A stretch of 64,000 nucleotides of DNA from Kitasatospora sp. CB01950 (GTDB lineage Bacteria > Actinomycetota > Actinomycetes > Streptomycetales > Streptomycetaceae): assembly GCF_001905465.1 (NCBI RefSeq), contig NZ_LISX01000007.1, positions 134,891 through 198,890 of the forward strand, in the 5' to 3' direction. The notes below the pieces were generated by a model. It had not been told where the DNA came from, did no database searches, and saw only the letters and a program-made list of their open reading frames with translations. Positions 56,162 through 59,644 of the stretch are shown piece by piece. The position numbers were made by a program, and so were the translations under genes. Each line of letters opens with the position of its first letter. Position 1 is the stretch's first letter.

Positions 56162-56337
56162 GCGCCCGGCATGCGGGGCGGCGCGGGCACAAATCGCCCT
56201 TCCCGCACGCTTCCCGCACGTTTCCATCATCACGGATGATCAAGACATAGGCCGCGCTCATCATATTCCGGGCTTCGCTCGACAAAAGCCGAGGTAAACC
56301 GGCCAGATGCGGCCGATCCGTGTCCGGAAAATTTCCC

Positions 56338-56366
56338 TTGACATGGGCACGTGTGAAAATCATGCT
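56338..56366 (+). promoter_or_regulatory. Putative promoter of the secreted-protein/ABC unit
   Basis: TTGACA (56338-56343), a perfect -35 consensus, is followed after 17 bp by CATGCT (56361-56366) as a moderate -10. The surrounding interval 56162-56445 is notably AT-richer than its neighbours and contains no gene. Confidence 0.5.
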
Positions 56367-56444
56367 TATCCGCGGGCCATGATCAACGGATCCGGCCCGC
56401 GCCCCGGCATCGCCGAGGCGCTCGTTTCCAGCCGAAAGGAATGG

Positions 56445-56460
56445 CATGAAGAACTTCATG
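56445..56460 (+). promoter_or_regulatory. Palindrome spanning the start codon of the secreted-protein gene
   Basis: CATGAAG-AA-CTTCATG is a perfect 7-2-7 inverted repeat including the ATG at 56446. The ribosome-binding site GAAAGGAA lies just upstream. It could serve as a protein site or, less easily with its 2-nt loop, as an mRNA hairpin. Confidence 0.35.
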
Positions 56461-56841
56461 CGCCGACGGGCCGGCGTCATCGGTGCCGCGCTTCTCGCCG
56501 TCACCGCCCTGGGCGCCATACCCGCCCAGGCCGAGGGCAACTGGAGCTCGTACATCAAGAGCTGGAACTCCGGCAACGAGTCGCGCCGCTGGACCGACAA
56601 CCACGCCGACCACGACTCCACCACGGTCGGCTTCTCCAGCTGCACCATCTACTCGGGATCCGGCACCATCCAGCTTGAGCTGGACCGCGACATCTCGCTC
56701 TGGCCGGACGCCAGCTACGGCACTCGCAACAACAACTGCAACACCAGCAGCTGGGGCGAGATGTCCGACAAGGGCAGCTTCTACTTCATCGACTACCACG
56801 ACGGCCCGATCGACGTGGGCAGCGTCTACACGGCATACTGA
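56446..56841 (+). CDS. Small secreted protein of unknown family, head of an ABC-transporter operon
   Basis: A 131-residue protein with a clear Sec signal peptide: basic MKNFMRRR, hydrophobic core VIGAALLAVTALGA, and cleavage after PAQA (about residue 29). The mature part, about 102 residues, is acidic and rich in Ser, Asn, Trp and Tyr, starting EGNWSSYIKSWNSGNESRRWTDNH. Two cysteines (about 66 and 97) could form one disulphide. The motif SRxWxDNxxDHxxTxVxFxxC suggests a compact beta-rich fold. No enzyme motif is present. A GAAAGGAA ribosome-binding site is well placed. A stem-loop and then an ABC transporter follow, so it may be a signal, toxin/bacteriocin-like factor or envelope protein. I do not recognise the family. 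Confidence 0.72.
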   Translation: MKNFMRRRAGVIGAALLAVTALGAIPAQAEGNWSSYIKSWNSGNESRRWTDNHADHDSTTVGFSSCTIYSGSGTIQLELDRDISLWPDASYGTRNNNCNTSSWGEMSDKGSFYFIDYHDGPIDVGSVYTAY

Positions 56842-56850
56842 CGCTCAATT

Positions 56851-56888
56851 GCCCGGTCGGCTCCGGAATTCCCCGGCACCGACCGGGC
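56851..56888 (+). terminator. Intercistronic stem-loop between secreted-protein gene and ABC ATPase gene
   Basis: GCCCGGTCGG (56851-56860) pairs perfectly with CCGACCGGGC (56879-56888). It lies 9 bp after the stop codon and 31 bp before the next start. It has no T-run. It could act as a partial terminator or 3' stabiliser that makes the secreted-protein mRNA more abundant than the transporter mRNA. Confidence 0.6.
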
Positions 56889-56919
56889 GATAAACAATTC
56901 GCCCCGAAAACGGAATGCC

Positions 56920-57663
56920 ATGCCGATCAAGATTTCGAACTGCTCGTTCAGCTATCGCCGCGGGCTGCCGGTCATCGAGCAGTTAAGCATTTCCTTCGAC
57001 CCAGGTGCCACCGTGCTGCTCGGCCCCAACGGCGCCGGAAAATCGACGCTGATGGCGATCGCCGCCACCGCACTGAAACCGAAGTCGGGGGACGTCCGGC
57101 TCGGCAGCGTCACCGCCTCCGGGCGGTCGGCCGTCCGGGCCTACCGGCGCAAGGTCGGATGGCTTCCGCAACAGGTCCGGCCGGTCGCCGGACTCAAGGT
57201 GCGCGAGCAGGTCGCGTACGGCGGCTGGCTCAAGGGCATGGGTCGCGACGCCGCGTGGGAGGCCTCGCTCGGGGCGCTCGCGAAGGTCCGGATGACCCAG
57301 CTCGCCGACCGGCGCAGCACCGAACTCTCCGGCGGTCAGCTCCGCCGTCTCGGCATCGCGCAGGCGCTGGTCCACGACGCCGAGGTGGTGCTGCTCGACG
57401 AGCCCACCGCCGGTCTCGACCCGGCGCAGCGTTCCGCGTTCCGCCGGCTGCTCACCGACCTCCAGGACTCCGTGAGCTTCGTCGTGTCGACCCATCAGAC
57501 CGAGGACCTGGCCGCGAGCTACCGCAGCGTGGTCGTCCTCGACCAGGGGCAGGTCAGGTACCAGGGCTCGATCGGCGAGTTCCTGGGCCGGGTGCCGGCC
57601 GGTGTCTCCGAGGAGCGCCGGGCCGAGGCCGCGTACTCCGAACTCGTCGCCGAGGAGGCGTGA
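56920..57663 (+). CDS. ABC transporter ATP-binding protein (exporter type) with a TTA codon
   Basis: A 247-residue nucleotide-binding subunit. It has Walker A GPNGAGKST (about 36-44), the Q-loop region WLPQQVRP, signature LSGGQLRRLGIAQAL, Walker B VVLLDEPTAGLD, and switch His in VVSTHQTEDLAASY. It pairs with the two membrane proteins encoded next. Leu22 is encoded by TTA (56983-56985), the rarest codon in streptomycetes, read only by the bldA tRNA. Translation should therefore be delayed to the developmental/secondary-metabolic phase. The first 30 codons also contain AT-rich choices (ATT, TAT, AGC ATT), unlike most genes nearby, which hints at horizontal acquisition. Confidence 0.92.
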   Translation: MPIKISNCSFSYRRGLPVIEQLSISFDPGATVLLGPNGAGKSTLMAIAATALKPKSGDVRLGSVTASGRSAVRAYRRKVGWLPQQVRPVAGLKVREQVAYGGWLKGMGRDAAWEASLGALAKVRMTQLADRRSTELSGGQLRRLGIAQALVHDAEVVLLDEPTAGLDPAQRSAFRRLLTDLQDSVSFVVSTHQTEDLAASYRSVVVLDQGQVRYQGSIGEFLGRVPAGVSEERRAEAAYSELVAEEA

Positions 57664-58910
57664 TGCGCTGGCGCACCCTGCTCCGCACCTCGATCGCACT
57701 GCGGGTCGCCCCGGCGCTGTTCGTCTGGGTTCTCGCGTACGTCGGCAACGTCAACGCCTGGGTGGTGGAGGGCTATTGGGCCTCCGTCACGGCCCAGAGC
57801 TCGTTCCTGCTGGGCTTCACCGCCCCGGCCTGCGCCGCGTGCGCCGCCTGGGAGGGGGCCCGGGTGAGGGCCTCCCGGGTGCTGGACGGGGCGCCGGTCA
57901 GGTCGGCCGCGGCGCTGGCCGTCCGGCGGACGGCGCCGGTCCTGGCGATGGGCCTGCTCGCCGTGCTGCTGCCGCTCGCCGTGCTGGCGCCGGACGCCGC
58001 CGGGTCGCCGGGCGGGCCGACGCTGTCGATCCTGGGCATCGAACTCCTCGTGGTGGCGGCCCACACCGCGCTCGGCTACGCCGCCGGCCAGGCGCTGCCG
58101 ACGCTGCTCGCCGTGCCGCTGGTCACCGTGACCAGCTTCGTGTGGATGGCCTACCCGGCCTCGCTGAACACGCTGTGGGTACGGCAGTTGAACGGCCACA
58201 ACCTGTCCGAGTGCTGCGCGCTCGACCAGCAGGTGTCGTACCGGGCGCTGGCCGCCTCCGCCGTGGTCGCCGTCGGGGCGATCGCGGCCGCCGCGCTCTG
58301 GCTCGCCGGGAGCGCCTGGCTGCTGCGGACGGCCGCGGTGGCGGCGGTGGCGGGCGCGCTGGCCGTCGGGTCGGTGCTCGCCGTGCCGCTCGGGTTCAAG
58401 GCGTCGGTGGCCCGGGACGAGAGCCTGCTGCGGTGCGACTCCGGTCGGCCGCAGGTCTGCCTGTGGCCCGAGCAGCGCGCGTCCGCGGACGACATCCGGG
58501 CCTGGGTGGACCAGGCCCACGCGCAGCTCGCCGCGGCGGGCGTGCAGGGCGCCGACCGGCTGACCCTGCTGCCCCCGCGCCCGTCCCGGGGCGAGGTGCT
58601 GGACGCGGTCGCCCGCTCCGCCGTCCCGCACGGCCTCCCGGAGTGCGCCGAGCGCGGCGCCTGGCCGGGCTCCCGGGCCGTCGGCCCGGTCTACGCCTGG
58701 CTGTCGGTCAGCGCGGGCCTCCGGCCGCAGGAGCTGAACGGCCGGTACCGGCCGGACGACGTGCAGCTGGTCAGCCGCCTGGTCCAGGCCCCGGCCGACT
58801 CCCAGCTCGCCTGGTTCCGGCGCAACGTGGAGACCCTGACCGCCTGCGACCGGACGCCCGACCTCGACCCCGGCCACTACCTGGCCGCCGCCGCGCCGGG
58901 ACGGGGGTAG
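57663..58910 (+). CDS. ABC transporter membrane subunit with large extracytoplasmic domain
   Basis: A 415-residue membrane protein. About six helices occupy residues 10-255 (for example APALFVWVLAYVGNV, SSFLLGFTAPACAACAAW, LGYAAGQALPTLLAVPLVTVTSFVWM). A non-membrane region of about 150 residues (about 255-410) follows the last helix and is probably outside the cell. It contains four cysteines (CDS, CLW, CAE, CDR) that could form disulphides. Motifs such as QAHAQLAAAGVQGADRLTLLP do not match a known enzyme. Its start overlaps the ATPase stop by one base. Together they form an export- or sensing-type ABC system of uncharacterised kind. Confidence 0.82.
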   Translation: MRWRTLLRTSIALRVAPALFVWVLAYVGNVNAWVVEGYWASVTAQSSFLLGFTAPACAACAAWEGARVRASRVLDGAPVRSAAALAVRRTAPVLAMGLLAVLLPLAVLAPDAAGSPGGPTLSILGIELLVVAAHTALGYAAGQALPTLLAVPLVTVTSFVWMAYPASLNTLWVRQLNGHNLSECCALDQQVSYRALAASAVVAVGAIAAAALWLAGSAWLLRTAAVAAVAGALAVGSVLAVPLGFKASVARDESLLRCDSGRPQVCLWPEQRASADDIRAWVDQAHAQLAAAGVQGADRLTLLPPRPSRGEVLDAVARSAVPHGLPECAERGAWPGSRAVGPVYAWLSVSAGLRPQELNGRYRPDDVQLVSRLVQAPADSQLAWFRRNVETLTACDRTPDLDPGHYLAAAAPGRG

Positions 58911-58912
58911 CC

Positions 58913-59503
58913 GTGCTCTGGTGGTTGCGCGTGCGGGCGCTGCCCGCGGTGCTGGCCGGCACCGTGCTGACGGTGCTGCTCGGCTCGCTGACCCGGTCGA
59001 TCGTGGTGCCCGTCCCGATCGTGGTGGGCGGCATCTCCTTCCCGCTGCCGATGGCGTTCCTGCTGCCGCTCGTCCCGGTCTGCCTGTTCCTGTACGGCTA
59101 CGGGCGCTCCGACGCGGTGACCGAGCGCACGGCGGTGCGCCGGGTGGCGCTGCTGGACGTGGCCGCGGTGCTCGGTGCGACGGCGGTGGCCGGCGCGGTC
59201 GGGTTCCACTCGGGCACCGGCGTGATGGTGGCCCGGGACTTCGCCGGCTACCTGGGCGTGGCGCTGATCGTCCGCTGGTGCGCGGGGATGCTCACGGCGG
59301 GCCTGGTGGTCTCCGTCTTCCCGTTCGTCTGCGCCTCGTTGGGCATCCGGGGCGGTGTGCCGCGGGTCTGGGCGTGGCCGTTCCTGCCCGCCGGGTCGGT
59401 GCCGGCGGCATTCGAGGTGCTGTTCCTCCTCGCGGTCGGCGTACTGCTGCTGTGGCGCGGGCCGCTGGAGTGGTCGCGGCGGGCGGATCTCGCCGCGGCC
59501 TGA
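58913..59503 (+). CDS. Membrane protein, third component of the ABC unit
   Basis: A 196-residue protein with about five to six membrane helices (LPAVLAGTVLTVLLGSL, ISFPLPMAFLLPLVPVCLFLYGYG, LLDVAAVLGATAVAGAVGF, LTAGLVVSVFPFVCASLGI, AAFEVLFLLAVGVLLLW). The GTG start is 2 bp after the stop of the preceding gene, so it belongs to the operon. No family was recognised. It is probably a second, smaller transmembrane subunit of the transporter. Confidence 0.78.
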   Translation: MLWWLRVRALPAVLAGTVLTVLLGSLTRSIVVPVPIVVGGISFPLPMAFLLPLVPVCLFLYGYGRSDAVTERTAVRRVALLDVAAVLGATAVAGAVGFHSGTGVMVARDFAGYLGVALIVRWCAGMLTAGLVVSVFPFVCASLGIRGGVPRVWAWPFLPAGSVPAAFEVLFLLAVGVLLLWRGPLEWSRRADLAAA

Positions 59504-59644
59504 CCCCGTCCGGACGACCGGGAGGCCACCGCCGGGTGACCTCCCGGTGCGGTGAATTGACGTCTGCCCACCGGAGGGTGACGTTCCGTCCGATTCGTTG
59601 ACCACTCGGGTCCGGTTCCGTCCGGTCAGGACTACGATCGATCG

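Follow-up and report, generated by a model that had tools for sequence, protein, structure and literature searches.

A recurrent cassette in Kitasatospora pairing a small secreted protein with a DUF7224-type ABC transporter: a candidate bacteriocin-immunity unit

Organisation of the locus

The 64,000 nucleotides (nt) of Kitasatospora sp. CB01950 analysed here (contig NZ_LISX01000007.1 of a 7.65 Mb genome), hereafter the window, contain four adjacent genes encoding a small secreted protein, SP, and an ATP-binding cassette (ABC) transporter formed by an ATPase and two membrane proteins, MP1 and MP2, together referred to as the trio. We propose, with a probability of roughly 60%, that this cassette is a self-contained mobile bacteriocin-immunity unit comprising secreted SP and an ABC immunity transporter. 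The arrangement agrees with an original prediction made from the DNA letters, in which a 131-residue, two-cysteine protein with a signal peptide heads an ATPase gene and two membrane protein genes, all four of which were found where that prediction had placed them. The features of the cassette are:

56446-56841, + strand: SP, secreted protein of family SP-A, 131 residues (signal peptide 56446-56532; mature protein of 102 residues, 56533-56838)
56920-57663, + strand: ABC ATPase, 247 residues (PF00005, E 3.9e-27)
57663-58910, + strand: MP1, permease with a C-terminal extracytoplasmic DUF7224 domain, 415 residues (PF23866, E 4.1e-28; AlphaFold2 model)
58913-59503, + strand: MP2, second membrane protein, 196 residues (hydropathy scan; recurrent partner)
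56162-59528, no strand: inserted cassette, approximate ends (missing in genomes G060, G037, G022, and G010)

The junctions within the transporter, predicted to be an overlap or 2 bp, proved on rechecking to be a 1 nt overlap of the MP1 ATG with the ATPase stop codon and a 2 bp gap between MP1 and MP2. The DNA preceding SP and at the start of the ATPase gene is AT-richer than its surroundings, as had also been proposed, with a G+C content of 0.57 at 56200-56399 and 0.595 at 56800-56999, compared with 0.72-0.82 from 54000 to ~56100 and 0.71-0.83 from 57000 to 59599 in 200-base steps. The cassette is flanked on one side by a gene for HEAT-like repeats, whose Pfam matches fall short of the cut-off, and on the other by a NUDIX gene, with tex following the NUDIX gene. 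Its nearest relative, in K. cheerisanensis, shares 78% (SP), 89% (ATPase), 77% (MP1), and 86% (MP2) identity.

The secreted protein SP

The signal peptide of SP, assigned by reading the sequence alone, spans 29 residues and ends in AQA, and as it contains no cysteine SP is not expected to be a lipid-anchored binding protein. The precursor contains two cysteines, C66 and C98, both invariant across a family without a name that is defined here as SP-A, members of which match the family profile and carry W20, C37, and C69 of the mature form. SP satisfies this definition, and the three residues are invariant in 43 mature SP-A sequences. No Pfam model matched SP at E<=1, and the single NCBIfam match lay far under its cut-off; weak matches of the secreted proteins to OmpABordt, DUF4179, DUF4859, copper_res_A, and others were disregarded, all being below their cut-offs. 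In a PADLOC search SP, MP1, and MP2 had no match at E<=0.01, and the ATPase matched only other ATPase models.

Fold prediction for single chains, among the checks proposed with the original prediction, yielded confident models of both SP and MP1. The AlphaFold2 model of SP consists of eight strands and is all beta (predicted local distance difference test, pLDDT, 94.6; predicted template modelling score, pTM, 0.85). The top VIA match to this model (Z 9.4) is the C-terminal domain of Pgp3, followed by TNF-like, lectin, and GOLD domains, none of which stands out, and a Foldseek search returned nothing at E<=0.001. We read the predicted fold as a common jelly-roll-like arrangement.

The ABC transporter

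The extracytoplasmic domain originally proposed for MP1 corresponds to residues 265-395, identified by Pfam as DUF7224 (PF23866; 98.7 bits against a cut-off of 27, E 4.1e-28). In the AlphaFold2 model (pLDDT 92.8), six or seven helices precede this C-terminal domain, with structural searching of the permease part giving NosY as the top match (Z 13.9, 4.0 Å over 208 residues). The 41 top-ranking rows (Z 13.9-8.2) are titled as ABC transporters or complexes of these, apart from one pair of entries whose title reads simply "mycobacterial efflux pump"; the matches include PmtCD chains (Z 9.4-11.1), and the first non-ABC fold appears at Z 6.9. MP1 is therefore predicted to be a type V (ABC-2-like) exporter-type permease of the NosY/ABCG/PmtCD kind, an assignment to be read with the caution that Z values below ~13 are uncertain for helical bundles according to the tool, and that the best Foldseek match had an E of 0.77.

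Three cysteines of MP1, C258, C266, and C328, do not vary in either of two alignments (39 and 42 sequences), nor do W346 and Q381, with these alignments spanning trios that accompany SP-A, those that accompany the second family SP-B described below, and orphan trios. DUF7224 is the sole MP1 match above any cut-off; otherwise MP1 shows, at E<=1, weak similarity to a single unrelated NCBIfam model. For MP2, in which a crude hydropathy scan indicates five hydrophobic segments, neither Pfam nor NCBIfam gave a match at E<=1, and the 25 best NCBIfam matches of the ATPase all fall under their cut-offs. Judged by these profiles, the trio fits no defined importer family, whereas belonging to one could have spoken against a dedicated module.

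Recurrence and mobility of the cassette

Among 100 relatives SP was found in 6 genomes, all six with a DUF7224 match ~2 kb downstream, and DUF7224 was found in 13. A six-sequence SP-A profile detected SP in 37 of 394 Streptomycetaceae genomes, including one false match (L100, E 6e-5) that was dropped on reading its sequence, and across the class in 9 of 296 genomes, three of them from other families. In all, 49 SP-A loci were examined, made up of the window, five from the same genus, 35 from other Streptomycetaceae, three from other families, and five from plasmids, with L035 left out as a duplicate of L022.

At 47 of the 49 loci all three transporter genes adjoin SP on the same strand. The co-occurrence check set by the original prediction thus shows SP homologues mostly accompanied by the trio, in line with its view of a dedicated pairing in a module without a name. 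The transporter profiles behind this count were iterated on hits from the same loci; their initial versions, built on just the window and eight loci, already detected MP1 nearly everywhere. The two exceptions are L069 and L097. The former is a frame without a signal peptide, in a genome where a trio is accompanied by another SP that is truncated; at the latter, SP is followed by an ABC ATPase, and neither MP1 nor MP2 was found. At the Ornithinimicrobium plasmid locus a transposase fragment lies between SP and the trio, and the MP1 match is shorter. Gene order in 30 loci is SP-ATPase-MP1-MP2 in 18 and SP-MP1-MP2-ATPase in 12. Several genomes hold more than one SP-A copy: two in G157 and G197, three in G207, and four in G424, where the divergent copies surround one trio and occupy both strands (L092:4666-9662).

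Plasmid protein searches with two SP-A queries returned 13 and 10 overlapping records, all from Streptomyces bar one from Ornithinimicrobium. The annotated plasmid SP-like genes are labelled "hypothetical protein", and the five plasmid loci fetched carry the full set.

Comparison of 61 genomes of the genus with the window DNA found the cassette between these flanks in the window's own genome and in K. cheerisanensis (G058), with the empty site visible in four relatives whose flanks stand 12, 21, 35, and 141 nt apart (G060, G037, G022, and G010, respectively). G026 is similar to these, with 500 nt between the flanks. For most remaining genomes the right flank alone was among the matches listed, which is uninformative on absence of the cassette. 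As both flanks lie close together without the cassette in four relatives, the four genes and the promoter region were gained or lost as a unit of ~3.4 kb. The distance between cassette and tex is 6.5 to 7.9 kb in four other Kitasatospora genomes (L023-L026, from G007, G046, G021, and G039), so this region may receive the cassette repeatedly.

A second secreted family, remnants, and trios without a recognised partner

The same 394 genomes were surveyed from the transporter side with a 39-sequence MP1 profile, and all 89 places found at E<=1e-56 were examined. This number is a lower bound, as four candidates were scored per genome; 143 genomes have a match at E<=1e-10, with those weaker than E 1e-56 including distant permeases. 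The 89 places comprise 44 with SP-A (SP having an internal stop in G422 and being truncated in G292), 13 with SP-B, five with firm and two with tentative SP remnants, and 25 with no recognised partner.

SP-B has ~75 mature residues, with four cysteines invariant in 12 sequences. Its profile found 18 places in 15 of the 394 genomes, all 18 within ~3 kb of a complete or decayed trio, and these consist of the 13 main copies, three additional opposite-strand copies, the L033 remnant, and G170. The main copies are:

L030:8116-8388: SP-B gene beside a DUF7224 trio
L031:10199-10540: SP-B gene beside a DUF7224 trio
L032, L165, L176, L181-L185, L190, L194, and L197: SP-B genes beside a DUF7224 trio

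The place in G170 (L224:5940-7555) is a decaying SP-B cassette with SP-B frameshifted, the ATPase and MP1 fused in a short frame after an internal loss, and MP2 open. SP-A and SP-B can be aligned over their signal peptides only and are treated as unrelated, so that one kind of transporter is accompanied by two unrelated secreted families. The SP-trio pairing proposed originally therefore holds, but the unit was drawn too narrowly, given that the trio also pairs with SP-B.

Where a trio lacks an intact SP (30 loci), searching by tblastn upstream gave matches at nine, compared with matches in 3 of 30 control segments. The firm remnants (L033, L168, L174, L193, and L195) have E values of 1.3e-10 to 0.003, and their trio frames are still open after decay of SP. 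The tentative remnants (L158 and L160; E 0.013 and 0.038) lie near the control range of 0.012-0.028, but end in the C-terminal family motif and are in the right place; matches at L161 and L177, and a weak one at L204, were rejected as remnants. At two SP-remnant loci the ratio of nonsynonymous to synonymous substitution rates (dN/dS) is 0.24 for MP1 and 0.14 for the ATPase, with a paired comparison giving 0.24 and 0.19, indicating that the transporter is still constrained.

Some of the 25 trios without a recognised partner are damaged, with the ATPase in two frames (L166 and L179) or MP1 in two frames (L205), and others are incomplete in the available sequence (L159, L167, and L191). At L167 a small protein of a different kind, which has no Pfam match and begins in a signal-like manner (L167:3665-4171), lies ~390 nt before MP1; seen once, it is possibly a third partner family. 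At another of these loci, L027, a LuxR-type response regulator gene (L027:3782-4756; PF00072 and PF00196) is directly upstream of the trio.

Promoter-like block and intercistronic hairpin

Three further features lie around the SP gene of the window:

56338-56369, + strand: putative promoter-like block from the sequence, TTGACA (56338-56343) and GAAAATCATGCTTAT (56355-56369)
56435-56440, + strand: ribosome-binding-site-like AAAGGA, 5 nt upstream of the SP start, conserved in K. cheerisanensis
56848-56891, + strand: hairpin between SP and the ATPase (z -5.1; in K. cheerisanensis z -7.5)

Both blocks of the promoter-like element are unchanged in K. cheerisanensis. A strong inverted repeat between SP and the next gene recurs, at z<-1.5 in 34 of 40 regions, its sequence differing among lineages. 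In a comparison with length-matched controls at 36 loci, from which L023-L026 were excluded, z<-2 was reached in 32 of the gaps between SP and the transporter, compared with six upstream of SP and one inside SP, and the four SP-B or SP-B-remnant loci tested also have the hairpin (z -2.1 to -4.3).

Rates of change

When the window is compared with K. cheerisanensis, mature SP has a dN/dS of 0.82 and the DUF7224 domain one of 0.81-0.91, the range reflecting three slightly different choices of domain boundary; the other parts give 0.20-0.21 (ATPase), 0.39-0.40 (membrane part of MP1), and 0.35 (MP2). In none of 2000 bootstrap draws did dN of DUF7224 fall to or below that of another part, with the corresponding proportion for dN/dS being 0 to 1.2%; for SP the proportions were 0.1-2.8% (dN) and 0.05-3.8% (dN/dS). 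Among the four parts of the transporter, DUF7224 ranks first in dN in 14 of 17 pairs, which are not independent (ATPase dN <=0.14). Partial correlation with SP distance in 30 loci ranks DUF7224 first (0.31, reached in 0/500 permutations), followed by the membrane part and the ATPase (0.19 and 0/500 each) and MP2 (0.09, 31/500), which is compatible with contact between SP and DUF7224 without proving it.

Proposed function and alternatives

We suggest that SP would leave the cell via the Sec pathway using its own predicted signal peptide and fold outside as a small beta-sandwich that probably contains a single disulphide; there it would act on the cell surface of close relatives and inhibit them. 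The trio would assemble into an ABC transporter, predicted to be of the exporter type, whose DUF7224 domain may recognise SP, with ATP-driven movement removing SP from a membrane or cell-wall target and so protecting the producer. The hairpin 3' of SP might act by partial termination or message protection favouring SP, giving more SP message than transporter message. Reading the cassette as a bacteriocin with its immunity transporter draws together several features: SP has its own signal peptide and is linked to an exporter-type transporter bearing an extracytoplasmic domain, the cassette is found on plasmids and is cleanly gained or lost, SP can be present in additional copies, the secreted families are swapped, and SP decays where the trio is kept. 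The original prediction had left immunity, signalling, and release side by side; of these immunity fits best, given the Sec-type signal peptide of SP, the trios that stay open after SP has decayed, and the exporter-like permease, with export and signalling less favoured.

Were the trio instead dedicated to exporting or releasing SP, or a small molecule that SP carries, and SP not toxic outside the cell, the near-obligate linkage of SP and trio and the exporter-type permease would be explained. However, SP has by our reading a signal peptide of its own, and a Sec substrate should need no further exporter; the trio is, moreover, kept where SP is broken, which favours immunity over export, and 25 of the 89 trios have no recognised secreted partner. 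We consider this explanation unlikely. A similarly low probability is given to SP being a signal or part of a sensor, with the trio sensing SP, or SP binding a ligand on which the transporter acts, as in antimicrobial resistance or development. Such a role would suit two extracytoplasmic parts, SP and DUF7224, that both change fast in the nearest pair and have the highest partial correlation, although simple correlations single out no part, and the response regulator gene upstream of the partner-less trio at L027 points the same way. No two-component gene adjoins the cassette in the window or at the five annotated plasmid loci, the loci examined in this respect, and sporadic presence together with plasmid copies is ill suited to a core developmental role; the lack of a signal-peptide cysteine likewise argues against a lipid-anchored binding protein. 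It is more improbable still that SP is a surface adhesin or carbohydrate-binding protein, linked to the trio through co-transfer of useful but functionally separate parts. Fold matches of SP to CBM6, TNF/C1q-like, and lectin domains would agree with this, but co-transfer alone does not predict two unrelated secreted families at the same place before the same trio, nor a hairpin at the four SP-B or SP-B-remnant loci tested.

Several observations weigh against the bacteriocin-immunity reading itself. The antibacterial activity of SP is something we infer, its fold matches are generic, and comparisons with Pfam and NCBIfam and between profiles detected no relation to a known bacteriocin. The 25 trios without a recognised secreted partner suggest that the trio may have another job, or partners not yet seen. 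Extracytoplasmic domains are generally fast-changing, and the 95% intervals of dN/dS in the nearest pair (0.42-1.84 for SP and 0.54-1.25 for DUF7224) are wide enough to fit relaxed constraint as well as positive selection, with dN/dS of SP being low (0.10-0.21) in the pairs L023/L024, L083/L084, L188/L192, and L080/L081. Rank correlations with SP distance in the 30 loci are alike for the membrane part (0.63), ATPase (0.61), DUF7224 (0.59), and MP2 (0.59). Lastly, some loci have no hairpin, and L023-L026 are non-uniform, with one of the four strong.

Taken more broadly, and here we see the chances as evenly balanced, the bacteriocin-immunity cassettes could represent an undescribed Streptomycetaceae class of secreted protein bacteriocins with disulphide bonds, comprising two or more unrelated families and sharing a type V ABC immunity transporter whose DUF7224 receptor coevolves with the toxin, and in which toxins decay or are swapped as the transporter stays behind as orphan immunity. 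Streptomyces are known for small-molecule antibiotics, and to our knowledge few of their protein weapons have been described, the umbrella toxins compared below being one example; if the proposal is correct, a compact, recurrent, plasmid-borne class would be added to these, and DUF7224 and several families of "hypothetical protein" would acquire a function. ABC-transporter immunity to a folded protein would also become a testable question, since the putative receptor domain is separable and extracytoplasmic and the secreted partner exists in two unrelated forms.

Comparison with known systems

In the literature searched, to which subscription journals mostly did not belong, DUF7224 was not found. 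Among the titles listed on lactococcin 972 and proteinaceous bacteriocins in Streptomyces, on its small secreted proteins alongside ABC transporters, and on its secreted proteins alongside immunity, none concerned this module.

LanFEG transporters, which protect lantibiotic producers, consist of one ATPase and two six-helix permeases (PMC5786555), and the cassette likewise has one ATPase and two membrane proteins. By the measure of two six-helix permeases, MP1 has six or seven helices and MP2 five hydrophobic segments in the crude scan. The cassette differs from LanFEG in that SP is predicted to be a folded protein and one permease has an additional extracytoplasmic domain, and no lantibiotic genes were found at the cassette of the window or annotated near the five plasmid cassettes. 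BceAB permeases share with MP1 the possession of an extracytoplasmic domain, however theirs is a large domain between helices VII and VIII of ten, is thought to bind the antimicrobial, and is partnered by a two-component system (PMC5786555), whereas the domain of MP1 is C-terminal and follows six or seven helices. Pmt is an ABC system exporting phenol-soluble modulins that is said to confer producer immunity (PMC5354552); its substrates are peptides that Pmt itself secretes, unlike SP with its Sec-type signal peptide and predicted beta fold.

Sequence features had at first suggested that SP might belong to the lactococcin 972 family (PF09683, NCBIfam); this was rejected, as no profile matched at E<=1. 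Profile-profile comparison with six of the seven actinobacterial lactococcin 972 members fetched gave a probability of 5.5%, over the signal peptide only, and MP1 or MP2 homologues occur at none of the seven loci. The SP model is all beta, and the lactococcin 972 structure was not among the fold matches listed. Lactococcin 972-like proteins of Streptomycetaceae (L108-L112 and L114) contain cysteines, and at L110 and L112 a membrane-protein-like gene without a Pfam match follows the lactococcin 972-like gene.

In gene content the cassette nevertheless resembles the lactococcin 972 clusters (lcn972-orf2-orf3, streptococcin B scbABC, and mediterrocin), which encode a secreted beta-sandwich together with a membrane protein and an ATPase that are presumed to provide immunity, and which are plasmid-borne in L. 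lactis (PMC12345188, PMC11796350, PMC4055356); PMC11796350 itself notes that the immunity and transport roles of the lactococcin 972 partners lack experimental data. Both have a small Sec-type protein, predicted here to be secreted and all beta, followed by a membrane protein and an ABC ATPase, but MP1 carries DUF7224 in place of DUF1430. The Streptomyces umbrella toxins, large multi-protein antibacterial particles with small secreted parts and the immunity proteins Imm1 and Imm88 (PMC11062931), are described in a paper whose main text does not contain the term "ABC transporter"; like them, the cassette provides a small secreted protein for which an antibacterial role is proposed.

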